DNA from: Duganella sp. BuS-21
GTDB taxonomy: Bacteria; Pseudomonadota; Gammaproteobacteria; Burkholderiales; Burkholderiaceae_D
Direction of reading: 5' to 3'
NCBI GenBank assembly: GCA_041874725.1
Contig: CP097466.1
Location: 4,464,001-4,528,000, forward strand
DNA: 64,000 nt
This document shows, in pieces, positions 24,404-44,670 of the stretch. Within the stretch, counting starts at the first letter, position 1; each line of letters starts with the position of its first letter. A program made the translations under genes and the position numbers. The notes beneath the pieces are model-generated. The model was given only the letters and a program-made list of their open reading frames with translations. It had not been told where the DNA came from and made no database searches.

Positions 24404-24496
24404 CGGCGCCGCCGCGCGCCACGGATGCCAGAGTTGCCTGAGCATGGCATCCGTGTCAGAATCGGTCATACTTCGCAACCCCGGCCAGGAGACCCT

Positions 24497-27707: not shown

Positions 27708-28348
27708 TCGAACTGCGCAACCTGAGCGAATTGGAAGTCGACAGCCTGGTCGAGATCTTCAACATCGGCGTCGGCCACGCGGCCGCGGCGATGAGTTCCA
27801 TCGTCCATGAGGAAGTGCGGATGTCGGTGCCGGCCCTGCAGTTCACCAGCCGCTCCCAGGCGGCCGGCGAGCTGGGCGACGGCCTGTCCCTGTGCGGCAT
27901 CAGCCAGCAGTTCCAGGGCGCCTACGCCACCGAGGCCATCCTGATGTTTCCGGAGGCGGCCAGCTTCGAGATCGTGCGCATGATGGTCGGCGACCTGGTC
28001 CCCATCGACGAGTTGGGCGAGATGGAGCGCGAAGCCATGAGCGAGATCGGCAACATCGTGCTCAACGCCTGCGTCGGCACCCTGGCCAATCTGTTCCAGA
28101 AGGAGCTGCACGGCTCGCTGCCGGTGTACCGCGTCGGCAGCAGCGAGCAAATCCTCAACCCCACGCACGACAGCAGCGATCCGGTGGTGCTCATGCTGCG
28201 CATCGATTTTTCGCTGGAACGCCAACAAATCGAAGGCTACCTGGCCTTCATCCTGGACATGTCGGCCCTGTCCGACCTGCGTGAACAAATCAACCTTTAC
28301 CTGAAGCGCTTCTCCGGAAACGCCATCGATGGATACCATTCGCCATGA
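27704..28348 (+). CDS. CheC-family phosphatase-like protein
   Basis: A 214-residue cytoplasmic protein of the CheC/CheX/FliY group. Two copies of the E-x2-N active-site helix are visible: EIFNIGVGHAAAAMSSIV near residue 14 and MSEIGNIVLNACVGTL near residue 110. CheC proteins dephosphorylate CheY-type receivers, here most likely the one encoded immediately upstream with a 4-nt overlap. The stop overlaps the diguanylate cyclase start by 4 nt as well. The ATG at 27704 gives the conserved start; longer frames read through the receiver gene. Confidence 0.85.
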   Translation: MIELRNLSELEVDSLVEIFNIGVGHAAAAMSSIVHEEVRMSVPALQFTSRSQAAGELGDGLSLCGISQQFQGAYATEAILMFPEAASFEIVRMMVGDLVPIDELGEMEREAMSEIGNIVLNACVGTLANLFQKELHGSLPVYRVGSSEQILNPTHDSSDPVVLMLRIDFSLERQQIEGYLAFILDMSALSDLREQINLYLKRFSGNAIDGYHSP

Positions 28349-29280
28349 AAGATAATCTGTTGCACGATGCATTCGGCTCCCTGAACCTGGGCGTGCTGGT
28401 GGTGGACGCCCGCTACCGCATCACCTTGTGGAACGTCTGGCTGGCCGCGCATACCGGCCGCAGCGCCGCCGAGGCGCTGGGCCAGGATTTCTTTGAAGTC
28501 TTCCCCGACCTGCAACACCACCGCGTGGGCGTCGCCATCCACCAGGCGATTTGCCACAACCTGCCGTCGCTGCTGTCGCAATCGCTGCACCGCTCGCCGT
28601 TCCCGCTGTTTGCCGACCCGAGCGAACCGGGCCAGCGCATCAGCCAGGCCATCACCATCACCCCGCTTGGCGGCGATGAGCGCCACTGCATGATTCAGAT
28701 TAACGATGTCAGCACGGCCGTGCGGCGCGAGGCGCTGCTGCGCGAGCAGGCCCACGTGCTGCTGTCGCAGTCGCTGTCCGACGGCCTGACCGGCGTCGGC
28801 AACCGCCGCCACTTCGACCTGTGCCTCGATAAGGAATGGCGCGCGGCCAAGCGCAACGGCAAGCCGCTGTCGCTGCTGATGATCGACGTCGATTTCTTCA
28901 AGCCCTACAACGACCACTACGGCCACCAGCAGGGCGACCTGTGCCTGCAGTTGGTGGCGGCCGCCATGCGCAAGGCGCTGCGGCGGCCGGAAGACATGCT
29001 GTTCCGCTACGGCGGCGAAGAGTTCTGCGCGCTGCTGCCGGGCACCCGCCCGGCGGACGCCATCGAAGTGGCCGAGAGCGTGCGCGCCAGCGTGCTGGCG
29101 CTGCGCCTGCCGCACGTGCGTTCGGCCGACGGCGACACCGTCAGCGTCAGCGTCGGCGCGGCCAGCTACGGCCCCCGCGCCCAGATCGGCCATACGCAAC
29201 TGGTGCAGGCCGCCGACAGCGCCTTGTACGAAGCCAAACGCGCCGGCCGCAACCGCGTGCGCGCGAGCGCCGCCTTCTGA
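28345..29280 (+). CDS. PAS-GGDEF diguanylate cyclase
   Basis: A 311-residue protein. A PAS-like domain covers residues about 8-125 (FGSLNLGVLVVDARYRITLW). A GGDEF domain covers residues 140-305 with DGLTGVGNRRHFD, the metal/GTP-binding DVDFFKPYNDHYGH and active-site GGEEF at 223-227. An RxxD inhibitory site (RPED, 214-217) sits five residues before it, so product feedback is expected. It would make cyclic di-GMP. Its ATG overlaps the CheC-like stop, so output is tied to the CheY/CheC pair. Confidence 0.93.
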   Translation: MKDNLLHDAFGSLNLGVLVVDARYRITLWNVWLAAHTGRSAAEALGQDFFEVFPDLQHHRVGVAIHQAICHNLPSLLSQSLHRSPFPLFADPSEPGQRISQAITITPLGGDERHCMIQINDVSTAVRREALLREQAHVLLSQSLSDGLTGVGNRRHFDLCLDKEWRAAKRNGKPLSLLMIDVDFFKPYNDHYGHQQGDLCLQLVAAAMRKALRRPEDMLFRYGGEEFCALLPGTRPADAIEVAESVRASVLALRLPHVRSADGDTVSVSVGAASYGPRAQIGHTQLVQAADSALYEAKRAGRNRVRASAAF

Positions 29281-30254: not shown

Positions 30255-31211
30255 TCAGCCCGGATGCACCACCCACATCCAGGCGCTCAGCGTAAAGAAG
30301 GAAGCGACCATGCAGATCAGCAGTGCCGCAGCGCTGCGGTCGCCCTCGCCGTAGGCTTGCGCCAGAATCGGATAGATGCTCAGCATGGGCATGGCCGCCA
30401 TCAGCAGCGCCGCCGCGTGCAATTGCGGCGCCATCGGCGCGATGCCCACCAGCGGCAACAGCGACGCCACCAGCAGCACCGCCAGCGGATGGCCGACCAG
30501 CTTGGCCGCCACCAGCGGTATCACACGCTGCCAGCCGCTGGTCAGGGACAGCCCGAACAGCGTGCCGCCGATGGCGAACAGCGAGACGCTGCCGCTGGCC
30601 TGCGCAAACAGGTTCACGCTGCGCACCACCGGCGGCGGCAGTTTGATTTCCGCCAGGCTGATGACCAGCCCCGCCGTCACCGCCAGCACCAGCGGGTTGC
30701 GCGCCAGGCGCTTGAGCGACTGGCGCACCGCCTGCAGCCAGGACCGGCCGCTGCCGCCGTCACGGGCGTTTTCCGCCATTGCCAGCAGCAGTGGCAGCAT
30801 CACCAGGTTTTCCACGATGACGTTCAGGCCCAGCGCCACGCCGGCTACCGGCGCCACCATCAGCAGCAGGATGGGAAAGCCGATGAAGCTGCTGTTGGAG
30901 CAGGAGACGCCCATCGCCAGGAAGGTGCTGCGGGTGCGGCTCAAACCGCCGAGGCGGCGACCCGCCACGTAGGCCAGCGTCAGCATCAGCAGCGAGCCGG
31001 CCAGATAGGACAGCAGATAGGCCGGATGCAGAATATCGCCGATGCGGCGTTGCGCCAGCGCGTTGAAGATCAGCGCCGGCAGCGCCAGGTTGAGTACGAA
31101 TTTGCCGAACACCTGCATGTCGGTGCGGGCGAACAGGCCAAAGCGTGTAGCCAGGTAGCCCGCCAGCACAACAAGGTAGATCGGGCCGGTGATGGCGAGG
31201 ATGTCTAGCAT
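30255..31211 (-). CDS. AEC-family (auxin-efflux-carrier-like) transporter
   Basis: A 318-residue membrane protein with about ten hydrophobic helices arranged as two inverted five-helix halves. Typical features are the opening ITGPIYLVVLAGYLATRFGL, the first-half motif NLALPALIFNALA and the SCSNSSFIGFPILLL segment. The family moves organic acids such as malate or malonate, or unknown anions. The start at 31211 gives the canonical N-terminus; the extension upstream lacks character. It lies downstream of the minus-strand peptide operon, separated by 82 nt, so it might be a distal member. Confidence 0.88.
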   Translation of the reverse strand: MLDILAITGPIYLVVLAGYLATRFGLFARTDMQVFGKFVLNLALPALIFNALAQRRIGDILHPAYLLSYLAGSLLMLTLAYVAGRRLGGLSRTRSTFLAMGVSCSNSSFIGFPILLLMVAPVAGVALGLNVIVENLVMLPLLLAMAENARDGGSGRSWLQAVRQSLKRLARNPLVLAVTAGLVISLAEIKLPPPVVRSVNLFAQASGSVSLFAIGGTLFGLSLTSGWQRVIPLVAAKLVGHPLAVLLVASLLPLVGIAPMAPQLHAAALLMAAMPMLSIYPILAQAYGEGDRSAAALLICMVASFFTLSAWMWVVHPG

Positions 31212-31293
31212 GGATGACCTGCGCTGCGAAAAGCAACCATATTGCCAGACTTGGCCGGCCAGCGCCAATCGCCGGCCGCGGCACTTGCCGCCG

Positions 31294-32508
31294 CTAGCGC
31301 GGCGCCGGCGCGGCCTGGGCCTGGGCCTGGGCCTGGGCCGCGCGCAGGATGCGCAGCACGTTACCGCTCCACATTTTCTCCAGGTCGCCGTCGCTGTAGC
31401 CGGCTGCTTTCAACGCCAGCGTGATGCGCGGCAGGTCGGACACGTCGGCCAGGCCGGTGATGCCGCCGCCGCCGTCGAAGTCGGCGCCGAAGCAGACATG
31501 CTCCGGCCCCGCCACTTTAATCACGTGCAGCAGGCCGGCCATGTACTGCTCGAAGGTGCTGCTCCACAGCGGCGCGGTCCGGTTCATCGCCAGCCAGCGC
31601 GCGCTGACGATGTCTTGCTCGGCCGGGCTCAGGTTGGCCATCCGTTCGCTCTTGTCGAACAGCGCCTCGCGCTCCGGCCCCATGTCGATGTTGCTGAGGT
31701 AGATGGTGGAGAAGCACAGCGCGCCGCCCGAAGCGGCCAGCTTGCGCAGGCGTTCGTCATCGAGGTTGCGCGGGTGGTCGAAGACGGCGCGCGAGCCCGA
31801 GTGCGACAACAGGATGGGCGTGGCCGACTGCGCCACCATCTGGTCGAAGGCGGCGTCGGAGGCGTGGCTGGCGTCGATCACCATGCCCAGCCGGTTCATC
31901 TCGCGCACCCAGTCGCGGCCGAGGGGACTGAGGCCGTTCCAGCGCGGCTGGTCGGTGGACGAATCGGCGAACTGATTGTTTTGCGTGTGAACCACGCCCA
32001 CCAGTCGCACGCCCTCCTTCTGGTAGGTCGACAGCGCGGCCACGCTCTCGCCCAGCGGATAGCTGTTCTCGATGCTCTTGAATCCCACCAGCTTGGCGCG
32101 TGCGTTCAGCGCCACCGCTTCGTCGGCGCTGCGGGCGGCGCCGATGCGGTCGCTGAAGCGCGCCAGCATGAGGTCGATTTCGGCCGAGCGCCGCTGCGCC
32201 GCCTTGCCGGCGGCGGCATAGCCTTCCGGCGTAAGCGGCCCTTGCGGCGTGAAGATGGCGAAGAAGCCGCCGTCCAGATTGCCGTCCGCCATGCGCGGCA
32301 GGTCCAGCTGCGCCATCTCGGCGGCCGGGTCGTGGCGGTCGCCGAAGCTCCAGCCGGGACGGGTGAAGTGCACCGCGCTGTCCAGGTGCGTGTCGAGCGT
32401 GAACAGCTTCGTGTGCGCCGCATCCGGCAAGGCCGGCGCGCTGCTGCACGCCGCCAGCGTCAGCGTCAAGGGCGCCAGCGCTGCGGCGATTCCTGCTAAT
32501 CGATTCAT
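31294..32508 (-). CDS. Membrane dipeptidase, peptidase family M19, lipoprotein
   Basis: A 404-residue zinc dipeptidase (renal-dipeptidase fold). The lipobox TLAAC with Cys21 predicts a lipoprotein outside the inner membrane. Zinc-site motifs are LDTHLDSAVHF (HxD), VIDASHAS, LLSHSGSRAVFDHPRNLDD and CFGADFDGG. M19 enzymes cleave dipeptides and, unlike most peptidases, accept a D-residue at the C-terminal position. That fits the neighbouring D-glutamate genes. Its start overlaps the previous gene's stop by 4 nt, making it the last tightly coupled gene of the operon. The C-terminus ends in an Ala-Gln repeat encoded by a hexanucleotide tandem repeat. Confidence 0.92.
   Translation of the reverse strand: MNRLAGIAAALAPLTLTLAACSSAPALPDAAHTKLFTLDTHLDSAVHFTRPGWSFGDRHDPAAEMAQLDLPRMADGNLDGGFFAIFTPQGPLTPEGYAAAGKAAQRRSAEIDLMLARFSDRIGAARSADEAVALNARAKLVGFKSIENSYPLGESVAALSTYQKEGVRLVGVVHTQNNQFADSSTDQPRWNGLSPLGRDWVREMNRLGMVIDASHASDAAFDQMVAQSATPILLSHSGSRAVFDHPRNLDDERLRKLAASGGALCFSTIYLSNIDMGPEREALFDKSERMANLSPAEQDIVSARWLAMNRTAPLWSSTFEQYMAGLLHVIKVAGPEHVCFGADFDGGGGITGLADVSDLPRITLALKAAGYSDGDLEKMWSGNVLRILRAAQAQAQAQAAPAPR
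31312..31338. repeat. GCCTGG hexanucleotide tandem repeat in the dipeptidase 3' end
   Basis: About four and a half copies of GCCTGG encode Ala-Gln pairs at the extreme C-terminus of the M19 dipeptidase. Copy number could vary by slippage without shifting frame because the unit is six bases. Confidence 0.75.
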
Positions 32509-34088
32509 TTATCCGCCTTTACGGGAGTGAAGTCCAGATCCTGATAATCCCAGCTGAAGTCGGCGATCGGCGACGCGGCTTTCATCGCGATGCGCGCCAC
32601 CTTGCCCTCAGCGTCCAGCGCAAAGGTAACATATGCCGGCTCGATAGTCTTGTCGTCGAAGCGGGTGACGTAGGTGTCGTACTGCCAGTGTTCCAGCTTG
32701 CCGCCCATGCGCGGCGTGGATTTGAAGTCGATGCGCGGGCCGTCCGCCGTCGCCGCAATCTCGATATTGCCGTACCACGGATCGCTGTAGGTTCCGACCA
32801 GCGCGGCCGCCGGCACCGACGGCCCCACCTTGGCCGGCGTGCTTTGCCCGGCCCTCAGCGCCTCCAGTCCCTGCGCCACCTGCTTCTGGCTGAAGGCCGC
32901 GTATTTGGCCGGCCAGTCGTTGGCGGGCAGGCCGAGGTAGTGGTCCATCAGCTCATACATCAGGCCACGGATGATGGCGCCGTCTTCGCTGTTGATGGTG
33001 ATGGCGAAGCCGACCTTCTGCTCCGGCAGCATCACCACCGCCGTCTTGAAGCCGAATACCGCGCCGCCGTGCCACACCACGCGCACGCCGCGATAGTCGA
33101 CCACGTCCCAGCCCAGCGCGTAGCTGGAGAACTGCGACTGCAAGGGCTTGAGTTCAGGCGGCATCTGGCCGATCGGCATCTGCACCACCGGGGTCCACAT
33201 TTGCGCGTGGCTGGCGGCGCTGAACATGCGTTTGCCGTCGGCCATGGCGCCGCCGCTCAGTTGCACCTGCAGCCATTTGGCCAGGTCGTTGGCGCTGCTG
33301 GCGATGCCGCCGGCCGGCGCGGCGTTGCGGCCCAGGTCATCGCGTTCGTCGAGCCGCTCCTGGTCGCCGGCGCCGCGCAGGCCGCCGTTCATGCGCGCGT
33401 GCGGATAGGCGCGGTTCTCGGTGGCGAAATTGCGCTCATTGTCGCTGGTCGAATTGCGCATGCCGGCCGCCTGCAGCACGTGCTGGCGTGTGTACTCCTC
33501 CCAGCTTTGGCCGCTGACGGTTTCGATCAGTTGTCCCGCCACCACGTACATCAGATTGGAATAGGCAAAGGTGGTGCGGAAGCTGGTGGCCGGCTTGAAG
33601 TAGCGCAGGCGCCGCACCACCTCGGCGCGCGAGACGTTGCTGCGGGGGACAAACAGCAGGTCGCCGGTGCCGTAGCCGATGCCGCTGCGATGCACCAGCA
33701 GGTCGCGGATGGTCATCTCGCGCGTCACCCACGGATCGTACATCTGAAAGCCCGGCAGGTGGTCGATCACGCGGTCGTCCCATTTTATTTTGCCGGCGTC
33801 CACCAGCGTCGCCAGCGCGGCGACGGTGACGGCTTTGCTGGTGGAGCCGATCGGGAACAGCGTGTCCGCATCGACCTTGGCCGGTGCGCCCAGCTGGCGC
33901 ACGCCGTAGCCGCGCGCCAGCGTGGTCTTGCCGTTTTCGACGATGGCAATCGCCAGGCCCGGCACGCCGATCTGCTGGCGCAAGGCCTCGACGCGGGCAT
34001 CGAAGCGCGCCGGCGGCGCGGCGTGCGCCAGGCCGGCGACGGCGAGTAAGAGCGCGGCCACGGCCTGCGCCATGATGATCTTGTTCAT
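32505..34088 (-). CDS. Exported serine hydrolase, beta-lactamase/D-aminopeptidase fold
   Basis: A 527-residue protein with a signal peptide (MNKIIMAQAVAALLLAVAGL, AHA). The penicillin-binding-type domain has SxxK at Ser82-Lys85 (GSTSKAV), the YSN motif (FAYSNLMYVVAG) and an HGG triad element (VVWHGGAVFGFKT). A C-terminal lipocalin-like domain of about 110 residues follows. Relatives include D-aminopeptidases, D-alanyl carboxypeptidases and esterases. Within this operon a role in trimming D-amino-acid peptides in the periplasm is likely but unproven. Both ends overlap neighbours by 4 nt (dgcN upstream, dipeptidase downstream). Confidence 0.9.
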   Translation of the reverse strand: MNKIIMAQAVAALLLAVAGLAHAAPPARFDARVEALRQQIGVPGLAIAIVENGKTTLARGYGVRQLGAPAKVDADTLFPIGSTSKAVTVAALATLVDAGKIKWDDRVIDHLPGFQMYDPWVTREMTIRDLLVHRSGIGYGTGDLLFVPRSNVSRAEVVRRLRYFKPATSFRTTFAYSNLMYVVAGQLIETVSGQSWEEYTRQHVLQAAGMRNSTSDNERNFATENRAYPHARMNGGLRGAGDQERLDERDDLGRNAAPAGGIASSANDLAKWLQVQLSGGAMADGKRMFSAASHAQMWTPVVQMPIGQMPPELKPLQSQFSSYALGWDVVDYRGVRVVWHGGAVFGFKTAVVMLPEQKVGFAITINSEDGAIIRGLMYELMDHYLGLPANDWPAKYAAFSQKQVAQGLEALRAGQSTPAKVGPSVPAAALVGTYSDPWYGNIEIAATADGPRIDFKSTPRMGGKLEHWQYDTYVTRFDDKTIEPAYVTFALDAEGKVARIAMKAASPIADFSWDYQDLDFTPVKADK

Positions 34089-35107
34089 ACGCGCTCCTGA
34101 ATATGATTGAGCAGTTGATCGAAAGCGGCGCCGCCGCGCATCGGATCGGCGACGGGCAGGCCAAGGCGTTGCGACAGTGCGTCGATGACAGCTTGCGCCA
34201 CATCCGCTTCCATGGCCGAGGTATTCAGCGCCACGCCGGCGCAAGCGATGGCGGGATTGGTGACGCGCCCCAGCGCCACGGTCTGCGCGATCACCGCTTC
34301 AACCGACGGCAGCGGCGTGTCGCCGAAACCGAGGATGTGGGTGCGGCCCGGATCGTGGCAGACCACAAATAAATCCGGCTGGCTGCCGTGCAGCAGACCG
34401 AGCGACACGCCCGCATACGCAGGATGGAACAACGAGCCCTGCCCTTCGATCACGTCGAGGTGATGCGGCGCGGCGGCGGGGCTGAGCATCTCCGCCGCGC
34501 CGGCCACGAAGTCCGACACCACGGCGTCGATGGGCATGCCGCCGCCGGCGATCAGGATGCCGGTCTGGCCGCTGGCGCGGAAGTCCGCATCCACGCCGCG
34601 TGCGCGCAAGGCGCGGGCCAGCGCCAGCGCCGTGTACTTTTTACCCAGCGCACAGTCGGTGCCCACCGTCAGCAGCCGTTTGCCGGAACGACGCCGGCCG
34701 CTGGCCACTGGAATATTGACCGGCGGCGTGCGGATATCGATCAGGCGCCGGCCCAGCCGCTCGGCCGCCGCCCGCAGCGGCTCGACCTGCGCCAGCTTGA
34801 CGTGCATGCCGGAGACCAGGTCCAGCCCCGCCTCCAGGCCGTCCAGCAACGCCGGCACCCAGCTTTCGGGTATCAGTCCGCCCGGCGCGGCCACGCCGAT
34901 CACCAGCGCCGTCGCGCCCTGCGCCTGCGCCTGTTGCGGCGATAACGACGGCAGGCCGGTGCTGACGGTGGCCGCCGGCAAAGCCAGTTCGCCGACACAG
35001 CGCTCGCCGGCCCAGTCGCGCAGGCCGAAGGCGGTCTTGGCGTAGCCCGGCTCCACGGTATCGCCGAGGAACAGCAGGTAGCGGCCCAAAGTGGTTTCCA
35101 CAGTCAT
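34085..35107 (-). CDS. dgcN: DUF1611-family protein DgcN (N-acetyltransferase of D-glutamate pathway)
   Basis: A 340-residue cytoplasmic protein of the DUF1611 family. An N-terminal domain (residues 1-130) is followed by a P-loop-like domain starting LLTVGTDCALGKKYTALALA and later VIEGQGSLFHPAYAGVSLGL and CHDPGRTHILGF. In the DgcN-DgcA pathway described in marine Proteobacteria, DgcN acetylates D-glutamate and DgcA racemises the product to N-acetyl-L-glutamate. The partner DgcA is encoded in the same operon, which supports the assignment. The ATG at 35107 shares one base with the TonB-receptor stop and has AAGGAG before it. An upstream extension only reads the receptor gene. Confidence 0.85.
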   Translation of the reverse strand: MTVETTLGRYLLFLGDTVEPGYAKTAFGLRDWAGERCVGELALPAATVSTGLPSLSPQQAQAQGATALVIGVAAPGGLIPESWVPALLDGLEAGLDLVSGMHVKLAQVEPLRAAAERLGRRLIDIRTPPVNIPVASGRRRSGKRLLTVGTDCALGKKYTALALARALRARGVDADFRASGQTGILIAGGGMPIDAVVSDFVAGAAEMLSPAAAPHHLDVIEGQGSLFHPAYAGVSLGLLHGSQPDLFVVCHDPGRTHILGFGDTPLPSVEAVIAQTVALGRVTNPAIACAGVALNTSAMEADVAQAVIDALSQRLGLPVADPMRGGAAFDQLLNHIQERV

Positions 35108-37308
35108 TAAAACTCCTTGGTCAGGGTGACGCCCAACGTACGCGGCGCGATCACGCCCGTGTTGATGGCGCCGCCCGGTGCGACGTTCATGCCGTTGGCG
35201 GTCTGCGCGCCGGTGGACACCTTGCCGTGGCTGTTGCCGAGGTTTTTGCCGTAAGCTTCCAGCGTCCACGTGCCCATTTCAAGGCCGACGTGAGCGTCGA
35301 CCACGTTATACGACGGCACTTCGCGCTGGCGGCCGTGGGCCGTGCGGTAAGCGCCGTCGAACGACGCCGACTGGTCCGAAAGGTGCCGCACCGAGGCGCC
35401 CGCAAACGCCTGCGTGGTGTCGCCCACGGCCCAGCGGTAGTCGGCCATCAGGGCCATGCTTAACTTGGGCGAGAACGGCAGCCGGTCGCCCTTGACGCCG
35501 CCCACCAGCGGATCGGTGTCGCCATCCAGTCGGGCCTTGTTGTAAGAGCCGTTGGCCGACAGGCGCAGGCCCTGCAGCGGCCGCAGGGTGGCGTTGAATT
35601 CCAGACCGTTGGAAGTCGCGCCGACGCCGTTGGTGTTGACGCCGAAGCCGTTGACCACAGCCAGCAGCTGGATGTCTTTCCATTCGATATGGAAGGCCGC
35701 CACTTCAAACGACAGCTTGCCGTCGGCGCTGAGCGACTTGTAACCGATCTCGTAGCTCATCACCGAATCGGAAGCGTAGGTGGTCGGCGTGCCGGCCGGC
35801 GCGTTCGGCGGCAGCACATTCGGGCCGCCCGGACGGAAGCCCTTGGCAGCGCGCGCATACAGCGAGTTGCGATCGTCGATCTTGAACTTCGGCGCGACCG
35901 CGTAGGTGAACACGTGCTCCGACGACTCGGCCGTCAGATCGGATGGACCGCCCACCAGCGCGCCGTCCTGCGCCTGCTGCGCGTCTTGCTTGTTGTGGCT
36001 ATAGCGGGCGCCCAGATCGAGATCGTAGCGCGGGCCGAAGTGGAAGGTGGTGTTGGCGAAGGCCGCGTATTCCTTGTACTTGGAGGCCAGTTCCACCCGC
36101 GCCAACAGCGGCAAGGCGGTGATCGGCGTCAGGGTGCCGGGGTTCACGGGCGCATAGCGCTGCTTGATCAGCCCTTCCTCGTCGGTGTAGTAGACGCCGG
36201 CCAGCCAATCGAACGCGCCGCCCGGATTGGAGCTGAGGCGCACTTCCTGCGTGAACTTCTTCAGGTTGGTGTTCTGCGCCAGGTAAAGTTCGTTGGGCGT
36301 CTCGAAGATGCTGGCGATCAGCGCGCTCAGGTTGTAGGTGGCGTCGTCGCGGTAGGTCTGCTTCTGGCGCGCGGCGCTGGTGGAGGAAGTCAGCGCGGCC
36401 CAGCCCATGTTCCAGTTCAGGGTGGCGTTGTAGACGCGGTAGTTCACGTCGTGGAGCTGCGGCACGAACTGCGACGACGACTGGCGGCCGTGCAGCGTGG
36501 CCAGCGTCTCTGGATCGCTTTCGACCACGCTGGAGGAATCGACCTCGATGTTCTGCGCCACCGCCGACAGCCGCAGCGAGAAGTCTTTGTTCGGTGCGTA
36601 CAGCAGCGAGGCGCGGCCGCCGTAGTTGCGCGAGCCGTTGATGTCGTTGGCGCGATCCGAGCCCTCCGTGCCGATGGAGTCGATGAAGCCCGGCTCTTTG
36701 GTGTACGAGCCGGAGGCGCGGAAGGCCAGCGTGTCGCTGATCGGCGTATTCACCACCAGGTTGGAGCGGTAGGCCAGCTTGCCGCCTTCCACCGTGGCTG
36801 CGCCGGCGCGGGCGCGCAGCACGAAGTTCTCGGTATCGGGTGCGTTGGTGACGAATTTCAGCAGGCCGCCCAGCGAGCTGGCGCCGTACACCGCGCCCTG
36901 CGGACCGCGCAGCACTTCCACGCGCGCCATGTCGAAGGTGTCGAAGTCGCCGGCCAGCACGGCGCCGTTGACCAGGCCACTGCTGGAGCCGAACGGCGTT
37001 TCATCGAGATACACGGCGACGGTGGAGGCGACGCCGCCGGTGTCCAGGCCGCGCAGCACCAGCCGCCCTTCGCCCGGCGTGCTTTGCACCAGCTGCAGGC
37101 TGGGCACCAGTTTCAGGTAGTCGGCAAAGGTGCTGGCCTGTTCGCGTTCCAGCGTTTCGCCGCTGATGACAGACACCGATTGCGCCACGTCCAGCGTGGT
37201 CTGCGTGCGCTTTTGCGCGGTGATCAATACCTGCTGGACTTCCGGCTCGGCCGCGTAAGCGCTAGCGACTGCCAGCGCCATCGACGTCAACAATAAGCTC
37301 TTCAACAT
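35107..37308 (-). CDS. TonB-dependent outer-membrane receptor
   Basis: A 733-residue receptor with a signal peptide (MLKSLLLTSMALAVASAYA), a TonB-box-like VQQVLITAQKR, a plug domain to about residue 170 (VARVEVLRGPQGAVYGASSLGG pattern, present as RVEVLRGPQGAVYGASSLGG) and a 22-strand barrel ending in TLGVTLTKEF with the terminal Phe needed for assembly. It would import a substrate across the outer membrane with energy from TonB. Operon position between dgcN and a POT transporter suggests peptides or peptidoglycan fragments rather than iron. The next gene starts within its stop codon. Confidence 0.92.
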   Translation of the reverse strand: MLKSLLLTSMALAVASAYAAEPEVQQVLITAQKRTQTTLDVAQSVSVISGETLEREQASTFADYLKLVPSLQLVQSTPGEGRLVLRGLDTGGVASTVAVYLDETPFGSSSGLVNGAVLAGDFDTFDMARVEVLRGPQGAVYGASSLGGLLKFVTNAPDTENFVLRARAGAATVEGGKLAYRSNLVVNTPISDTLAFRASGSYTKEPGFIDSIGTEGSDRANDINGSRNYGGRASLLYAPNKDFSLRLSAVAQNIEVDSSSVVESDPETLATLHGRQSSSQFVPQLHDVNYRVYNATLNWNMGWAALTSSTSAARQKQTYRDDATYNLSALIASIFETPNELYLAQNTNLKKFTQEVRLSSNPGGAFDWLAGVYYTDEEGLIKQRYAPVNPGTLTPITALPLLARVELASKYKEYAAFANTTFHFGPRYDLDLGARYSHNKQDAQQAQDGALVGGPSDLTAESSEHVFTYAVAPKFKIDDRNSLYARAAKGFRPGGPNVLPPNAPAGTPTTYASDSVMSYEIGYKSLSADGKLSFEVAAFHIEWKDIQLLAVVNGFGVNTNGVGATSNGLEFNATLRPLQGLRLSANGSYNKARLDGDTDPLVGGVKGDRLPFSPKLSMALMADYRWAVGDTTQAFAGASVRHLSDQSASFDGAYRTAHGRQREVPSYNVVDAHVGLEMGTWTLEAYGKNLGNSHGKVSTGAQTANGMNVAPGGAINTGVIAPRTLGVTLTKEF

Positions 37309-37329
37309 GTGCTTCTCCCGTCAGGTGTG

Positions 37330-38610
37330 TTAATTGGTGTTTTGGTGGGTTTGATTTATTTTTTGTGTCGCAGGATGCAACAGCCACAGCAGCGCGGCTG
37401 CGAGCGACGCCAGTCCCGCCAGCAGCGCGAAGAAGGAGGCCGGTTCGCAGCGGCTCCACAGGCTGCCGACGACACCGGCGCTCAGGCTGCCGGTGAAGAT
37501 GATCAGGAACCAGGCGCCCACCGTGGTGGTGCCCAGCCGGGGCGGCGCAAGCCGCGCGAACAGGCCCAGGCCGGTCGGCAGGATGAACAGCTCGCCGAAG
37601 GTGAAGATCAGGAAGAACAGTGCCAGCCACATCCAGCCTGCCGGTTTGCCGCCGGCCTGCCAGGCCACCAGCGCCAGCAGCAGGTAGGCGGCGCCGACGA
37701 TCAGCGCGCCCAGTGCCATGCGGCGTGCCGGCGGCTGGTCGTGGCCGGCGTCGGCGCGGCGCCGCCACCAGGCCAGCAGCGGTGGCGTCATCAACATCAC
37801 GAAAAGCGGGTTGAGCGACTGGAACCAGGTCATGGGAATCAGCCAGTTGCCGGCCTGGCGATCCAGGCCGCTGTCCGCCCACAGGGCCACGGTGTTGCCG
37901 ACCTGCTCGTAGGCGGAGCGGAACACCGTCACCGCGACGCCGATGGCGACCAGCGTGAGCACGGTGCGACGGTCGAAGCCGCGCGGCGCCGCTGCGGTTG
38001 CTGCTGCGGCAGACGCGATGCGCTCCGGCTCCGGCGGCAACCAGCGCTGGCCGTTCAGGTAGATCGCCAGGCCCGCCAGCATGCCGACGCCGGCCAGCCC
38101 GAAGCCGTAGTGCCAGCCATAGACTTCGCCGATGGTCCCGCACAGCAGCGGCGCCAGGAAGCCGCCGATGTTGATGCCGACGTAGTAGACGTTATAGGCC
38201 CAGCCACGGCGCGGATCGTCGCGGCGGTACAGGTCGCCCACCTGGCTCGGCAAAGTCGGCAGGAACAAGCCGTTACCCAGTGCGATGGTGATCAGCGCCA
38301 GGTAGAACAGCGGCTCGAACGCCATCATGAAGTGCCCCGCCGCCATTACCGACGCGCCGATGATGATGGCGCGCCGTTTGCCCAGGAAGCGGTCCACCAT
38401 CATGCCGCCGATGATGGGCGTAAAGTAGGCGCAGGCGGTGTAGGCGCCGTAGATGTAGGAGGCATGCGCCTGGCCCAGCATCAGCTGCCGCGTCATGAAG
38501 TAGACCAGCAGCGCGCGCATGCCGTAGTAGGAAAACTGTTCCCACATATTCGTGAGGAACAGCACCGTCAGGCCACGCGGATGGCCGAACCACGTGGCCC
38601 CGGTCGTCAT
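37330..38610 (-). CDS. POT/PTR2-family proton-coupled oligopeptide transporter
   Basis: A 426-residue inner-membrane transporter. The N-terminal segment LFLTNMWEQFSYYGMRALLVYFM carries the POT signature, with E-x-x-E reduced to WEQ and the FSYYGMR core intact. YNVYYVGINIGGFLAPLLCG is the second PTR2 signature. Around twelve helices follow, shorter than many POT members. Such proteins import di- and tripeptides with protons. In this operon it would deliver periplasmic peptides to the cytosolic DgcN/DgcA pair. Its ATG overlaps the dgcA stop by 4 nt; the 21-nt gap to the receptor is the only non-overlapping junction in the operon. Confidence 0.9.
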   Translation of the reverse strand: MTTGATWFGHPRGLTVLFLTNMWEQFSYYGMRALLVYFMTRQLMLGQAHASYIYGAYTACAYFTPIIGGMMVDRFLGKRRAIIIGASVMAAGHFMMAFEPLFYLALITIALGNGLFLPTLPSQVGDLYRRDDPRRGWAYNVYYVGINIGGFLAPLLCGTIGEVYGWHYGFGLAGVGMLAGLAIYLNGQRWLPPEPERIASAAAATAAAPRGFDRRTVLTLVAIGVAVTVFRSAYEQVGNTVALWADSGLDRQAGNWLIPMTWFQSLNPLFVMLMTPPLLAWWRRRADAGHDQPPARRMALGALIVGAAYLLLALVAWQAGGKPAGWMWLALFFLIFTFGELFILPTGLGLFARLAPPRLGTTTVGAWFLIIFTGSLSAGVVGSLWSRCEPASFFALLAGLASLAAALLWLLHPATQKINQTHQNTN

Positions 38611-39635
38611 GGCATCACCCGCGCGCCGACGCCGATGCCGACGCCAGCTCCCCACACCGCCGACGACGACCACACGTTGCCGTGCACGTAGTCGACGCCG
38701 GGCTGGCGGTCGTTGGCGAGGAAGGTCGGACCGTCCAGGTCAACGATGTCGCAGCTTTGTCCAAGTACAAAGCTCGGCGCCATCGCCAGGCTGGACCCGC
38801 CCATATTGCCGACCATGACGCGCAGGCCGAGCCGCCGGGCCTCGGCCGCCATCATCAGCCCTTCGGTCAGGCCGCCGCACTTATCCAGCTTGATGTTTAC
38901 CACATCGAAGCGGCCCAGCGCCGACGGCACGTCGTCCAATGTCAGGATGCTTTCGTCGCCGGCGATCGGAATCGCCGAACGATAACCCTGCAGATGCGCC
39001 TCCTGTCCACGCGCCAGCGGCTGCTCCAGCAGCGCCACCCGATAGGTCGACAGGCCGGCCACCAGCGCATCCAGATCGTCCGCACCAAAGCCCTGGTTGC
39101 CGTCCACGCCCAGCCACACGTCCGGCCGGGCGGCGCGGATCGACGCTACCCGCGCCAGGTCGAGCTCAAGCTCCCCGGTCAGCTTGACCTTGATGGCGCG
39201 CGCCTGGGCGCATTCCCGCGCCGCCTGCGCCATGCGCAACGGTTCGTCCGCGCCCAGCGTGAAGGTGGTGCGCAAGGCGCGCGGCGCCGTCTGGCCGGCC
39301 AGCTGCCACACCGGCATGCCATGGCGCGCGGCCTCCAGCTCCCACAGCGCGCAATCGACCGCATTGCGGGCGCCGCCGGGCGGCATTAAACCGCGCAGCT
39401 CGTCGCGGCTGGGATCGGCCTCGATGGTGTCGCGCGCGCGTTCCAGTTCGGCCAGCATGTGCGGCGCGTCGTCGCCCAGGTAGTAGACGCCGCCGCCCTC
39501 GCCGCGTCCTTCGAAGCGGCCATCACTGAGCTTGACCACCACCACGTTGAAATGCTCGAACAGATAGCCGGAGATACGGAACGGCTGCCGCAGTTGCAGC
39601 TGTTCCGACGTCACGGTGAGCGTCAGGCGTGCCAT
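38607..39635 (-). CDS. dgcA: Enolase-superfamily epimerase DgcA (N-acetyl-D-glutamate racemase / L-Ala-D/L-Glu epimerase type)
   Basis: A 342-residue enzyme of the muconate-lactonising/dipeptide-epimerase group. All catalytic elements are visible: the KxK motif in AIKVKLTG, metal ligands Asp in WLGVDGNQGF, Glu in ALLEQPLARG and Asp in PIAGDESILT, and the second base Lys in VNIKLDKCGG. Relatives epimerise L-Ala-D-Glu from peptidoglycan (YcjG) or racemise N-acetyl-D-glutamate (DgcA). Presence of dgcN in the same operon favours DgcA, but a dipeptide epimerase role cannot be excluded. The start shares one base with the stop of the upstream serine hydrolase. Confidence 0.87.
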   Translation of the reverse strand: MARLTLTVTSEQLQLRQPFRISGYLFEHFNVVVVKLSDGRFEGRGEGGGVYYLGDDAPHMLAELERARDTIEADPSRDELRGLMPPGGARNAVDCALWELEAARHGMPVWQLAGQTAPRALRTTFTLGADEPLRMAQAARECAQARAIKVKLTGELELDLARVASIRAARPDVWLGVDGNQGFGADDLDALVAGLSTYRVALLEQPLARGQEAHLQGYRSAIPIAGDESILTLDDVPSALGRFDVVNIKLDKCGGLTEGLMMAAEARRLGLRVMVGNMGGSSLAMAPSFVLGQSCDIVDLDGPTFLANDRQPGVDYVHGNVWSSSAVWGAGVGIGVGARVMP

Positions 39636-41572
39636 CAGTAATTCACCGTGAAGGCCAGCAGGCCGAAGCTGAATGCCACCCACAGCAGCACGAGGCTGGA
39701 CACCAGCACCAGCACGCTCCACAGCTTGCGCAGCCGGCTGCGGCCATCGGTCAAGGCCAGTTGCAGATTGCGTGCGCTGAGCAGCACCGCGCCGACGAAC
39801 ACCACCAGGCCCACCGCCTGCAGCAGCCACAGATATGGATCGCTGAGCGAGGTGGCGTATTTCAGGCTGCTCAGCATGGCCGCGAACATGCCGGTCCAGC
39901 CCAGCAGCACGCCGATGCTGAGGCCCGCAGCGATCTGCGTGGCGCGGGCGGCAGTGCGCGCCTTACCGGCCGGCAGCGGCGCCACGCCGTATTTGCGGCG
40001 GCAGAACCAGCCCACCGGCAGCGCCAGGAAGGTCAACAGCAGGACCGGCAGCGCCACCATCAGGGCCGGCATCAGCCAGGCGCCGGACTGCGAGGCCGGC
40101 ACGCGGTCGAACACCATGAACGGCGACATGAAGTCCATGCTCCAGCGTACCGGCTTGCCGTCCACCACTTGCGCGGCGATGCGGTCGTGGCCGTTGCGGT
40201 CGCGCCAGATGAACGGCGCGATCTCCACCCACTCGCGCGGGCGATGGTTGCGGCCCACCAGGTCGGGAATCAGCAGCTCGCCTTTCTCGTTGACGGTGAC
40301 CTTGGTCTGGCCGATGAAGCCGAGGATGGAGAAGAAGCTCGATGCCGAGCGGCGGCTGTTCTGCCAGGTGCCGCTCATCAGCTTCGCGTGTTCGGCGGCG
40401 GTTTTGTCGTCGACCTTGCCGTCCGGCGCGCCTTCGTAGGCGAAATAACGGTCAGAGAAGTCGTGGAACAGCGCGGTGCGCAGCGTGCCGGCGGCGCCGC
40501 CCTTGCCGGCGCTGTTGAAGGACACGTAGAAGCCGACACCCTCCTTCATGTACAGGTGCAGCGAGGTGTGGAAGGCTTCGGTGTCGCCCAGGTGGCCGAC
40601 CACGGAGCGGCCGTTGATATTGGTTTCAAAGAAGCCCAGTTCCATGCGGTTGAGCGGACCGACCAGCGATTTCGGATTGACCTTGGCCAGCGGGCTGTCC
40701 AGCATGGTGCTGGCGGTGGCCTGCGACAGGATGCGTTGGCCATCGAGTTCGCCGTAACGCAGGTTGGCCAGCATGAAGCGGCCCATGTCGGTGCCGGAGG
40801 CGGACAGCGAACCGGCCGGCGCCGGGCCGACGATCTCGAACGGCTCCGCCGGCTCGCCGACCTTGGCGTAACCGCGCGACATATGCGGCTCCAGCGCGGC
40901 CGGCAGCGGCTGACGGAAGCTGGCCGTGCGCATGTCCAGCGGCTTGAAGATCTTCTGCTCGACGTAATCGTCGAACGACAGGCCCGATAAGCGTTCAACC
41001 ACATAGCCGGCCAGCGCGGTGGCGTAGTTGGAATAGGCCGGCGTGGTGCCGGCGGCGTAGATGCGGTGCGGCACCCAGGCTTTCAGCAGGTCGCCCAGCT
41101 TGGGCGTCTTGGCCGGGAAGTAGTCGATGATCTCCTTGGCCGCTTCCTCGAAGCCGGCCGTGTGGGTCATCACCTGGCGCAGCGTGATGGGAGCGCCGTC
41201 CAGTGCAGGAATCTTGAAGTCGAGGTAGGTGTTGATGTCGGCATCCAGGTCCAGCTTGCCCTGCTCCACCATCTGCATCACGGCGGTCCAGGTCACCAGC
41301 TTGGAGACCGAGCCGGGACGGAACAACGTGCGCTCGGGATCGACCGGCTTGCGCTTTTCCACATCGGCGTAGCCGAAGCCGCGCGCGGTGAGGATCTGGC
41401 CGTCCTTGACCACCACCACGACGGCGCCCGGAATGTCGCCGGTGTTCAGCGCGTAGGGCATATAGCCGTCCAGCCAGCCGTCGACATTTTCCTTGGTGAG
41501 GCCCTGCTGAGCCACCGCGCTACCCGCTGCCAGATACAACGCCCCTACTAGTATTGCCCGTCGGAAAACCAT
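39635..41572 (-). CDS. Membrane-anchored serine hydrolase (beta-lactamase fold), first gene of the peptide operon
   Basis: A 645-residue protein with an N-terminal signal (ILVGALYLAAGSAVA). The catalytic domain has SxxK at Ser88-Lys91 (GSVSKLV), YSN (PAYSNYATALAG) and an H-L-G element (VVGHLGDTEAF). A middle beta domain and, from about residue 490, four to five membrane helices (LMPALMVALPVLLLTFLALP onward) complete it. The active site would face the periplasm while the tail anchors it. Related proteins hydrolyse D-amino-acid peptides or esters. GGGAGAGG precedes the ATG at 41572, and the intergenic region to the divergent XRE regulator holds the likely operon promoter. Confidence 0.9.
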   Translation of the reverse strand: MVFRRAILVGALYLAAGSAVAQQGLTKENVDGWLDGYMPYALNTGDIPGAVVVVVKDGQILTARGFGYADVEKRKPVDPERTLFRPGSVSKLVTWTAVMQMVEQGKLDLDADINTYLDFKIPALDGAPITLRQVMTHTAGFEEAAKEIIDYFPAKTPKLGDLLKAWVPHRIYAAGTTPAYSNYATALAGYVVERLSGLSFDDYVEQKIFKPLDMRTASFRQPLPAALEPHMSRGYAKVGEPAEPFEIVGPAPAGSLSASGTDMGRFMLANLRYGELDGQRILSQATASTMLDSPLAKVNPKSLVGPLNRMELGFFETNINGRSVVGHLGDTEAFHTSLHLYMKEGVGFYVSFNSAGKGGAAGTLRTALFHDFSDRYFAYEGAPDGKVDDKTAAEHAKLMSGTWQNSRRSASSFFSILGFIGQTKVTVNEKGELLIPDLVGRNHRPREWVEIAPFIWRDRNGHDRIAAQVVDGKPVRWSMDFMSPFMVFDRVPASQSGAWLMPALMVALPVLLLTFLALPVGWFCRRKYGVAPLPAGKARTAARATQIAAGLSIGVLLGWTGMFAAMLSSLKYATSLSDPYLWLLQAVGLVVFVGAVLLSARNLQLALTDGRSRLRKLWSVLVLVSSLVLLWVAFSFGLLAFTVNY

Positions 41573-41657
41573 GGACCTCTCCCTCTCGATTGTGTATTTG
41601 CTATGGACTACATCACGCGATAGAATGCACTTTGCTGAAACGGTTAAAAATTCTCTA

Positions 41658-41679
41658 ATCAGGACACTTTGATCCTGAT
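41658..41679. promoter_or_regulatory. Candidate operator: perfect 7-bp inverted repeat
   Basis: ATCAGGA (41658-41664) and TCCTGAT (41673-41679) are exact reverse complements separated by 8 bp. They lie in the A+T-rich 138-bp gap between the peptide operon and the divergent XRE-cupin regulator, a position suited to control of both by that protein. Confidence 0.5.
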
Positions 41680-41710
41680 CGGATAATTTGTCAATATTTG
41701 GAAATTGAAA

Positions 41711-42331
41711 ATGTCTCTTAATTCGCCTACCTTGGGCGCGCTCATGCGCGGCCTGCGCAGCCGGAAGGGCTGGACGCTGAAACAAATGAGTGCGGAAAGT
41801 GGCATCCCGGTCTCGACCTTGTCGAAGGTCGAACACGATCGCCTGACCCTGACCTACGAAAAGCTGTACCAACTGGCCCAGCGGCTGGGGCTAAGAATGT
41901 CGGAACTGTTTGCGGAAGAAAGCGAGGACGCGGTGACGCCGACCGCGCGCCGCAGCCTGGGCGACCTGTCGCACGCGGTGCGGGTGGAAACGCCGAACTA
42001 CGACTACCACTACCTGTGCGCCGAGTTGCGCCGCAAGCGCATGATCCCGGTGATCGCCAAGGTGCGCGCCAAGACCGCCAAGCAGTTCGGCAATCTGGCG
42101 CATCATTCAGGGGAAGAGTTTTCGTATGTGCTGAAGGGCAGCGTGGTGGTCACCACCGAGTTCTACGACCCGGTGGTGCTGCACGAGGGGCAGTCGATCT
42201 ACTTCGATTCCAGCATGGGCCACGCCTACCTCACCGCCGAAGGCTGCGACGAGGCGCTGGTGCTGACCGTGATGTCGAGCGCGGACGAGGAACAGATGGA
42301 TACCCTGATCCACAAGCACGCCGAGAATTAA
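41711..42331 (+). CDS. XRE-family regulator with C-terminal cupin domain
   Basis: A 206-residue regulator. Residues about 8-68 form an XRE helix-turn-helix (LGALMRGLRSRKGWTLKQMS, SGIPVSTLSKVEHDRLTLTY). Residues 110-200 form a small cupin (HHSGEEFSYVLKGSVVVTTE, YFDSSMGHAYLTAEG) that would bind an effector. XRE-cupin proteins often control amino-acid, polyamine or peptide use. This one diverges from the seven-gene peptide/D-glutamate operon and is the obvious regulator. The ATG at 41711 gives MSLNSPT; a TTG two codons earlier is less likely. Confidence 0.9.
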   Translation: MSLNSPTLGALMRGLRSRKGWTLKQMSAESGIPVSTLSKVEHDRLTLTYEKLYQLAQRLGLRMSELFAEESEDAVTPTARRSLGDLSHAVRVETPNYDYHYLCAELRRKRMIPVIAKVRAKTAKQFGNLAHHSGEEFSYVLKGSVVVTTEFYDPVVLHEGQSIYFDSSMGHAYLTAEGCDEALVLTVMSSADEEQMDTLIHKHAEN

Positions 42332-42437
42332 AAATTCGAATAAACGTTATGCGGTAAATTGTATTTTCAAATAATTTGCCATGCCGGATGATGGTTGGAC
42401 AGCAGTTACAACAACAACCATCATCACGGAGACAACC

Positions 42438-43622
42438 ATGCGCAAGTTCCAACGGGCGGCCGCAGGCGCCCTGCTATCCATCCTCTTCATCAACGTGCAG
42501 GCGGCCGATGCACCGCCGGTGCGCATCGGCGTCATCACCTCGCTGAGCGGCGTGGCCGCGCAGAGCGGAGAGCAGATGAAGGCCGGCATCGACACCTGGC
42601 TGCGCATGCATGGCGACGGCGCCGGCGGCCGCAAGCTGCAGGTGATTTACAAGGACGACACCGGCGCGCAGCCGGAGGTGGCCAAGCGCCTGGCGGGAGA
42701 GCTGATCGGCCGCGAACAGGTCGACGTGCTGGCCGGCTTTGTCTTCACGCCCAACGCGGTGGCGGCGGCCGGCGTGGCCGACCGCGCCAGGAAACCGCTG
42801 GTGATCATGAACGCCGCCGCTTCCGCCATCACGGCGCGCTCGCCGTACGTCACGCGGACTTCGTACACCATCGCCCAGTCGGTGCAGCCGTTGGCCGAAT
42901 GGGCTTACAAGACTGGCTCGCGCCGCGTGTTCTCCATCGTGGCCGACTACGTGCCGGGCCAGGAAGCGCACACCTGGTTCAGCAGCAGCTTCACCGCCAA
43001 GGGCGGCGTCATTGTCGATAGCGTGAAGGTGCCCTTGTCCACCGTCGATTTCAGCGCCTACCTGCAGCGCATCAAGGACGCCAGGCCGGACGCCATCCAC
43101 GTGTTCCTGCCCAACGGCCAGCCGATGGTATCGTTCATGAAGAGCTACAAAGAAAAGGGATTGGACAAGGCCGGCATCCGCTTCCTGGGTGGCGAGGGCT
43201 GGGCCGACGAGGATGTGCTGAATGCGGCCGGCGCCTCGATGCAGGGCATCTACACTGCCGGCTTCTATACCTTCTCGCGGCAGGGTGCGGACAATGCCGC
43301 GTTCACGGCGGCGTTTGCGAAAACCGTCGGCCAGCGTTTCAAGCCCAACTTCCAGGCGGTGGCCGCGTATGACGGCATGGCGCTGATCGCCGCTGCCCTG
43401 CAGCGGACCAAGGGCGACGCCGGTGGCGAGGCGTTCATGGCTGCGTTGAAAGGCTACCGCGCCGACAGTCCTCGCGGCACAGTCAGCATCGACGACAAGA
43501 CCAGGGATATCGTGCAGACCATCTACATCCGCCGCATCGACAAGCAGGCCGACGGCCACTACGCCGCCACCGAGATCGACCGCTACGACGCCGTGCGCGA
43601 TCCGGCCAAGCCGCTCGACTAA
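42438..43622 (+). CDS. Periplasmic amino-acid-type ABC substrate-binding protein (Leu/Ile/Val family), solo
   Basis: A 394-residue exported binding protein. The signal peptide is MRKFQRAAAGALLSILFINV. The mature protein begins VRIGVITSLSGVAAQSGEQM and continues with the two-lobed type I fold (DTGAQPEVAKRLAGELI, VDVLAGFVFTPNAVAAAGVA). Such proteins bind branched-chain amino acids, amides or aromatic acids. No ABC permease or ATPase genes are adjacent, so it either uses a distant transporter or serves as a sensor. It lies 106 nt after the XRE-cupin gene on the same strand and may share its regulation. GGAG precedes the ATG. Confidence 0.9.
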   Translation: MRKFQRAAAGALLSILFINVQAADAPPVRIGVITSLSGVAAQSGEQMKAGIDTWLRMHGDGAGGRKLQVIYKDDTGAQPEVAKRLAGELIGREQVDVLAGFVFTPNAVAAAGVADRARKPLVIMNAAASAITARSPYVTRTSYTIAQSVQPLAEWAYKTGSRRVFSIVADYVPGQEAHTWFSSSFTAKGGVIVDSVKVPLSTVDFSAYLQRIKDARPDAIHVFLPNGQPMVSFMKSYKEKGLDKAGIRFLGGEGWADEDVLNAAGASMQGIYTAGFYTFSRQGADNAAFTAAFAKTVGQRFKPNFQAVAAYDGMALIAAALQRTKGDAGGEAFMAALKGYRADSPRGTVSIDDKTRDIVQTIYIRRIDKQADGHYAATEIDRYDAVRDPAKPLD

Positions 43623-43689: not shown

Positions 43690-44670
43690 TTACTTGAGTG
43701 TGCGGCCGAGGAAGGTGCGCATCAGTGAGCCGATCTTCGCGCTCTCTTCTTCCAGCGCGAAGTGGCCGGTGTCGAGTATGTGCAGTTCCGCTTTCGGCAA
43801 GTCGCGCAGGTAGGGATGGGCGCCGGCCGGTGGGAAGATTTTGTCGCCCTTGCCCCAGACGATCAGCATCGGCGGCTGGTGCTTGCGGAAGTAGGCCTGC
43901 CATTCCGGATAGTGCGGCGGATTGGTGCCGTAGCTGTGGAACATCTCGATCTGGATGTCCTTGTTGCCGGGACGGTCCAGATAAGCCTGGTCGACGGTCC
44001 AGGCATCCGGACTGATGCGCGAGACATCATGCGCGCCTTCTGTGTACTGCCACTTGGTGCCGGACAGCTCCAGCAGCGGCCGCAGCTTGGAACCGTTGGC
44101 TTCCGTTTTCTCGCCCCAGTACACCTTCACCGGCGCCCAGAATTCATTGGCCAGGCCCTCGTCGTAGGCATTGCCGTTCTGGACCACGATGGCGGTCACG
44201 CGCTCGGGATGGGCGGCGGCCAGACGGTAGCCGATCGGCGCGCCGTAGTCTTGCACATACAGCGCGTATTTCGATGCGCCGACCGCGACGGTGAATTTGT
44301 CGATCACCTTGGCCAGGTTATCGAAGCTGTAGGTGAATTTGTCCATCGGCGGCATGTCGCTCTGGCCGTAACCGGGATAGTCGGGCGCGATCACGTGGTA
44401 GCGGTCGGCCAGCAGGGGAATCAGGTTGCGGAACATCTGCGACGAAGTCGGGAAGCCGTGCAGCAGCAACAGCGTCGGTGCATTCTTCGGACCGGCCTCG
44501 CGATAGAAAACGTTGACGCCGTCGATGTTCACGGTGCGATAGCTGACGGCGGCGGTGTTGGCGACATTCGGCGCGGCGGCCGGCGCAGCCATTGCCGGCA
44601 CGAAGAACGACAGCGACACGCTGACCGCCAGCGCGGCCACGGATTGCATCAGGAGGGTGGAGGTTTTCAT
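43690..44670 (-). CDS. Exported alpha/beta hydrolase, haloalkane-dehalogenase/epoxide-hydrolase-like
   Basis: A 326-residue protein with a signal peptide (to about residue 28, PAMAAPA). Core motifs are [18 protein letters not shown] (oxyanion HGFP), [11 protein letters not shown] and the nucleophile elbow [12 protein letters not shown], where Asp replaces Ser as in epoxide hydrolases and haloalkane dehalogenases. The catalytic His is in [12 protein letters not shown]. Its substrate is unknown. It is 12 nt downstream of the DsrE-like gene and shares a promoter carrying a GCGAAATAATG palindrome. Confidence 0.88.

Follow-up and report, generated by a model that had tools for sequence, protein, structure and literature searches.

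A co-inherited operon of Duganella sp. BuS-21 that probably takes up and epimerises small peptides containing D-residues

We analysed a stretch of 64,000 nucleotides (nt) from Duganella sp. BuS-21 (GenBank assembly GCA_041874725.1, contig CP097466.1, positions 4,464,001 to 4,528,000), hereafter the window. On its minus strand, positions 31294-41572 hold an operon of seven open reading frames (ORFs), transcribed from 41572 to 31294. These seven genes are a co-inherited unit, found with its facing regulator in many bacteria of soil and water, and their grouping goes beyond chance. We consider it probable that they form a regulated, horizontally spread operon for the uptake and epimerisation of small peptides that contain D-residues. 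A preliminary description of the locus had proposed one module running from the uptake of D-glutamate peptides to L-glutamate; its general scheme is probably right, and its D-glutamate label is probably wrong.

In order of transcription, the operon encodes SH1, an S12 serine hydrolase of 645 amino acids (aa) (39635..41572; PF00144, 205.8 bits, scanned as the longer ORF 39635-41872); a DgcA-like epimerase/racemase of the enolase superfamily with altered substrate loops (342 aa, 38607..39635; Pfam MR_MLE N and C domains); a POT/PTR2 transporter (426 aa, 37330..38610; PF00854, 178.4 bits, passing the gathering cut-off of 27); a TonB-dependent outer-membrane receptor with both plug and beta-barrel domains (733 aa, 35107..37308); a DgcN-like DUF1611 protein (340 aa, 34085..35107; PF07755, 236.9 bits, DUF1611 N and C domains); SH2, an S12 serine hydrolase with PF00144 and DUF3471 (527 aa, 32505..34088); and an M19 dipeptidase with a lipoprotein-like N-terminus (404 aa, 31294..32508; PF01244, 269 bits, above the gathering score). 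Read from the sequence, SH1 and dgcA overlap by 1 nt, dgcA and the POT gene by 4 nt, the receptor gene and dgcN by 1 nt, dgcN and SH2 by 4 nt, and SH2 and the M19 gene by 4 nt; the 21 nt between the POT and receptor genes are the sole gap among the six junctions. Pfam, NCBIfam and the sequence confirm the ORFs, families and six junctions given in the preliminary description. Absent from that description was a divergent gene about 140 bp away, which encodes an XRE-cupin transcriptional regulator (206 aa, 41711..42331, plus strand), identified from its translation and a PuuR-like match of 38.6 bits that falls below the model cut-off.

The case for a single unit comes from the neighbourhoods of dgcN in other genomes. 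Our close set was the best 80 of 538 confirmed dgcN loci in named genomes. A less selected background comprised 69 dgcN places besides the window's own, from 398 Pseudomonadota genomes, 71 of which matched; nine weaker places (32-37% identity) were left out. A further 20 loci came from 196 genomes of the order to which genome G407 belongs, namely 12 of its 13 module-type places and eight hand-picked others; the thirteenth (L120, which shares a genome with L063) was already in the set and was excluded before the order-sample counts. We called a locus a module locus when its dgcN was at least 61% identical to the window's and ordinary otherwise, which, after exclusion of two duplicates, gave 91 distinct module and 76 ordinary loci, compared within a 9-kb radius. 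A TonB receptor, an S12 gene and the regulator occurred jointly at 71 of the 91 module loci and at none of the 76 ordinary ones. The preliminary description had expected receptor and hydrolases to be co-conserved with dgcN and dgcA, and these joint counts bear this out. Taken singly, module and ordinary loci differed for the receptor (79/91 vs 8/76), S12 (90/91 vs 10/76), the regulator (81/91 vs 1/76), M19 (57/91 vs 2/76), POT (49/91 vs 0/76) and a permease with an APC fold (70/91 vs 1/76); dgcA was near dgcN at 82/91 and 74/76 loci, respectively. Across the 196 genomes of the G407 order, module-type dgcN (at least 62% identity) was found in 10 and module-type POT (at least 63%) in seven. All seven POT-bearing genomes were among the 10, with POT and dgcN at most 4 kb apart in six and about 11 kb apart in the seventh.

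Where dgcN is at least 66% identical to the window's, the typical order is regulator, SH1, dgcA, POT or a second M19, TonB receptor, dgcN, permease, SH2 and often M19. Loci with dgcN 44-59% identical mostly consist of dgcN and dgcA alone, although within this ordinary range L139 and L123 have TonB and S12 genes nearby. L139 (genome G539; dgcN 51%) also has M19 and permease relatives near, and is perhaps an intermediate or an independent assembly. L060, L066 and L079 carry two dgcN relatives each in rearranged modules. The permease, missing from the window's operon, lies mostly between dgcN and SH2 in relatives (e.g. L072:10993-12129). It has no Pfam, NCBIfam or PDB sequence match, and we call it APC-fold because Foldseek matches its predicted model (predicted local distance difference test, pLDDT, 88.5) to APC/LeuT-fold transporters (best E 1.5e-5).

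From the protein families we infer each reaction, each protein location and control by the regulator. The dedicated TonB receptor would pass a D-residue peptide across the outer membrane, and the two S12 hydrolases and the M19 lipoprotein dipeptidase would trim it in the periplasm. The altered POT transporter, which in many relatives is joined or replaced by the APC-fold permease, would carry the resulting fragment across the inner membrane. In the cytosol, an N-acylated substrate would then be inverted at its alpha carbon by the DgcA-like enzyme; this substrate may be the dipeptide as imported or an N-acetyl-D-amino acid that the DgcN-like protein has produced. Control of the divergent promoter would fall to the XRE-cupin protein.

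SH1 has SVSK at 88, YSN at 180 and HLG at 327, and SH2 has STSK at 82, YSN at 176 and HGG at 340, so that both contain the SxxK and YxN motifs of S12 enzymes. SH1 has a start that looks signal-like by eye and, by hydropathy, three to four transmembrane segments at its C-terminus; among its sequence relatives in the PDB are an alkaline D-peptidase (4y7p) and a D-Ala-D-Ala carboxypeptidase (1cef). By hydropathy the N-termini of SH2 and the M19 enzyme are hydrophobic, the latter with a lipobox-like LAAC judged by eye. The best PDB sequence match of the M19 enzyme is 2rag (E 1.2e-118), and the stretches THLD, SIENS, DASH and LSHSG, which we take to bear the metal ligands, are present and align with 2rag. 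The host genome, a single contig of 6.49 Mb, has 89 TonB-barrel matches and 10 S12 matches, two of which are SH1 and SH2.

Which D-residue is handled was addressed through DgcA and DgcN. In the primary work on this pair, D-glutamate is reportedly acetylated and N-acetyl-D-glutamate racemised. Against the DgcA model NF042940 (curated cut-off 400 bits), the window protein scores 346 and three other module proteins 332, 357 and 378, whereas three ordinary proteins score 440, 478 and 480. Against the DgcN model NF041892 (cut-off 480), the window protein scores 435.5 and two other module proteins 439 and 446, whereas two ordinary ones reach 508 and 519. The best PDB sequence match of the window DgcN is 7xrj. 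In a DgcA alignment of 78 module and 66 ordinary rows, which kept in one doubtful row (L016 17253-18359, a probable false match), the catalytic residues K149, K151, D178, E204, D227 and K252, all found in the window protein, are kept in both groups; together with D299 and D301 they are retained in 97-100% of the module rows. The loops in the 20s and 50s, which presumably cover the active site and set specificity as elsewhere in the enolase superfamily, differ. At position 23, 96% of module rows have Gly and 95% of ordinary rows Arg; at position 52 the corresponding figures are 95% Tyr and 88% Arg. The window protein has Gly23 and Tyr52 in place of the two arginines, and the 50s loop reads GVYYLGD in the module instead of PYxRYGE. 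DgcN likewise has Leu259 and Ala33 at positions that are Arg in 90% and 87% of ordinary rows, respectively. The loss of these positive residues in both proteins suggests a substrate without an acidic side chain, and we doubt that glutamate is the residue handled.

These proteins resemble ordinary DgcN-DgcA pairs in combining the same two families in one locus with the DgcA catalytic residues kept. They differ in their sub-threshold scores, in their substrate loops and in their setting: the 68 ordinary loci of the phylum sample are mostly bare pairs, whereas the operon studied here comes with a receptor, an importer, hydrolases, a dipeptidase and a regulator as well. Module DgcA also shares its fold and catalytic residues with the E. 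coli L-Ala-D/L-Glu epimerase (YcjG, 1jpd). However, the 20s and 50s loops of 1jpd are in the ordinary state, and it clusters with ordinary DgcA rather than with the module.

A second kind of operon bears on what DgcA does. Four sister POTs (46-47% identity) lie in TonB-SH1-POT operons divergent from a regulator and dgcA, and no dgcN adjoins the operon in any of the four loci. Sister DgcA has the module loops in 4/4 loci and falls inside the module DgcA branch by a quick method, in a tree of part of the rows only (44 module, 22 ordinary, four sister and one epimerase, including the doubtful L016 row). The racemase therefore accompanies the uptake genes, with or without dgcN. At a threshold of 1e-60, no dgcN match is found in genomes G754 and G703, and the sister-operon carriers G416 and G763 have an ordinary dgcN elsewhere in the genome. 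These data fit a special case of our scheme in which the DgcA-like enzyme is a dipeptide epimerase acting on the POT-imported dipeptide, with DgcN accessory or on a separate branch. The nearest folds to DgcA, 4gfi and then dipeptide epimerases, point the same way, as does the public annotation of two plasmid loci as dipeptide epimerase. However, three of the four sister loci are closely related, dgcA is kept with dgcN at most module loci (the 82/91 above), and a fold match is no proof of function. The DxD pair was set aside as proof of a dipeptide epimerase, being kept in module and ordinary DgcA alike. On balance we regard this special case as possible, with the chances against it.

The transporter is also changed. 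The preliminary description took it for an importer of small peptides; the family stands, and a function as a plain importer of di- and tripeptides needs qualification, with three key sites altered. Canonical POTs have ExxER in transmembrane segment 1 (TM1) and Lys in TM4. In the window POT, NxxEQ (N21, Q25) replaces ExxER, L117 replaces the TM4 Lys, and R231 appears in TM7. This three-site change is found in 49/49 distinct module rows (51 rows in all), in 4/4 sister rows and in MlrD of the microcystin-degradation (mlr) cluster, whereas it occurs in none of 42 other POTs, all of which retain the TM1 Arg and TM4 Lys and lack a TM7 Arg. In place of the TM1 Arg, four module rows have Lys, the remaining 47 have uncharged residues and the sister rows have Glu; the TM4 Lys becomes Leu, Met or Ile in module rows, sister rows and MlrD, and TM7 gains Arg. 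Module rows keep the equivalent of GkPOT Arg43 (51/51) and the TM10 Glu (50/51, one gap), residues that act at the two ends of the peptide according to PMC4331665. From this pattern we infer an altered substrate or coupling rather than a broken protein. E. coli DtpC (YjdL) offers a comparison, and is reportedly the subject of a paper whose title names a critical conserved Lys. Its TM1 motif is changed to N-xx-E-Y, with a shift from peptide carboxylate to side chain described in PMC9309889. The window POT, with N-xx-E-Q, resembles it at TM1 and differs in also losing the TM4 Lys and gaining the TM7 Arg.

We located MlrD through the published gene order and primers in the Sphingosinicella microcystinivorans genome (L200), where mlrB and mlrD primers matched and the mlrA primer had no match within two mismatches. 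A second mlr-type cluster (L331) is present in genome G757, which also holds a dgcN module (L335). MlrD, module and sister POTs form one branch against 41 other POTs (Shimodaira-Hasegawa-like approximate likelihood ratio test, SH-aLRT, 99), in a tree of 26 of the 51 module rows and three of the four sister rows from which the L201 POT was dropped. The sphingomonad cluster (mlrA-F) further resembles the operon in having S12 and M19 enzymes. MlrE, a relative of the operon's M19 enzyme (43%), is given as a dipeptidase, and MlrF, a relative of an amidohydrolase in some module loci (33%), as a D-aminoacylase, in PMC4520899. MlrB and SH2 are only 25% identical over most of their length, and MlrE was rejected as an exclusive relative of the module, as background M19 rows share its branch. 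The two systems differ in that a scan of the seven operon genes and three neighbouring ones showed no MlrA-type (CPBP) or MlrC-type domain, and in that no match to dgcN, dgcA, receptor or regulator lies beside mlrD in L200 except a 26% TonB match about 6 kb off. The glutamate of microcystin is the D-iso form. The link supports D-residue peptides in general and leaves room for D-iso-Glu.

This bears on the remaining special case of our scheme, the one put forward in the preliminary description, in which peptidoglycan-type L-Ala-D-Glu peptides are captured, D-Glu is released and then N-acetylated by DgcN, and DgcA inverts the product to N-acetyl-L-Glu, which goes on to L-Glu. In NCBIfam the two proteins match the DgcN and DgcA models best, and from family knowledge M19, S12 and POT would suit L-Ala-D-Glu peptides. 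PMC12363236 presents dgcN as the key gene in a pathway that serves acidic D-amino acids and the corresponding amides, and microcystin, whose degradation cluster has a transporter of the same branch, contains Glu (PMC12474180). Against this route, both equivalog cut-offs are missed, Arg is lost at DgcA 23 and 52 and at DgcN 259 and 33, the sister operon lacks dgcN, and four genomes, G407 among them, retain an ordinary dgcN-dgcA locus in addition to the module. We therefore judge this route unlikely, slightly more so than the dipeptide epimerase.

Several observations weigh against our overall reading of a dedicated D-peptide operon. Some module-type loci are partial (L341 without receptor or regulator, L343 without regulator). 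In the order sample of 12 module and 12 ordinary loci, of which four ordinary ones came from the phylum sample, TonB (10 vs 4) and S12 (12 vs 7) separate the groups less sharply, whereas the contrast holds for POT (6 vs 0), permease (10 vs 0) and regulator (10 vs 0). Likewise, four genomes carry dgcN of both kinds; their ordinary loci (L156, L344, L345, L346) have an S12 gene in 3/4 and a TonB gene in 1/4, and POT, permease and regulator in 0/4. Taxon and module are partly confounded in the locus counts, because most module loci were selected by dgcN identity. A periplasmic M19 enzyme would cleave dipeptides before import, which fits poorly with a dipeptide importer. In NCBIfam the receptor best matches a siderophore-receptor subfamily, with a score below that model's cut-off, and S12 enzymes include esterases and amidases. 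General peptide scavenging without a D-residue bond, with S12 esterases or amidases, a receptor for another ligand and an unrelated role for DgcA and DgcN, would accommodate the siderophore-type match and the esterases and beta-lactamases among the S12 PDB relatives, but is improbable given the co-inheritance of the gene set (71/91 vs 0/76) and the D-residue members in each enzyme family by family knowledge and PDB names (S12 D-peptidases and D,D-peptidases, M19, MR/MLE racemases).

A bolder joint reading, which we offer tentatively and with rather less than even confidence, is that the operon is a so far undescribed catabolic system for D-peptides other than those of glutamate, in which POT recognition has moved from the TM1 Arg and TM4 Lys to the TM7 Arg alongside a matching racemase, and from which microcystin degraders may have taken the importer MlrD. 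A literature search turned up no paper joining these genes, within a coverage outside which most subscription papers fall.

The operon's history is likely one of horizontal transfer. In the host's family dgcN occurs in 2/195 genomes, both of the same genus; with the operon this rare there, it was probably acquired by the host lineage. The preliminary description had looked to Burkholderiales for co-occurrence, which is not mainly there: a trait of the whole order was set aside on the 2/195 count, and Duganella, Pseudoduganella or Massilia account for seven of the best 80 of 538 named dgcN loci. Module loci come mainly from sphingomonads, Lysobacteraceae, Steroidobacteraceae and Caulobacteraceae. 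Module POTs form a single branch, with the Duganella and Massilia rows nested within sphingomonad rows (12-row branch, 99/99), and the annotation of two megaplasmids from the sphingomonads Novosphingobium and Croceicoccus shows the same order of genes. By a fast method, 63 of 65 dgcN-adjacent receptors fall in one 69-row TonB branch (support 92) that contains none of the background receptors (17 rows from 38 loci tried); its other six rows are module-locus receptors not adjoining dgcN. Outside it are L053 and L123, the latter adjoining an ordinary dgcN. Base composition gave no sign of import: 2-kb windows of the operon have 63-68% G+C, like the surroundings, and a recent import judged on this ground was set aside.

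In the gap between regulator and operon, TCCTGATCAGGA-like sites with at most two mismatches occur at 14/64 loci, at a density of 0.59 per kb compared with 0.07 elsewhere. We treat this motif as a candidate operator and a lead only, because the window's own sites have three mismatches and the motif was chosen from the same sequences. An operator-like inverted repeat, TCAGGA-N8-TCCTGA (41659..41678), in the same gap is likewise only a lead. Three outer flanking genes, for an AEC transporter (30255-31268), a Peripla_BP_6 periplasmic binding protein beyond the regulator (42381-43622, plus strand) and an alpha/beta hydrolase (43690-44670), were considered as members and left outside the unit because they have no relative in the best 80 of 538 dgcN loci. 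Farther off, translations judged by eye suggest a large ATPase-like protein with a LuxR-type end (24425-27085, plus strand) and a PAS-GGDEF-like protein (28345-29280, plus strand).

The changed loops caution against naming such loci for D-glutamate by homology alone. The shared site changes place MlrD, whose function is called undetermined in PMC6563193, in a testable POT family. In soils and waters, D-residue peptides form a pool that resists degradation, and a conserved locus that joins outer-membrane capture to stereo-inversion would offer a genetic handle on the organisms that use them.

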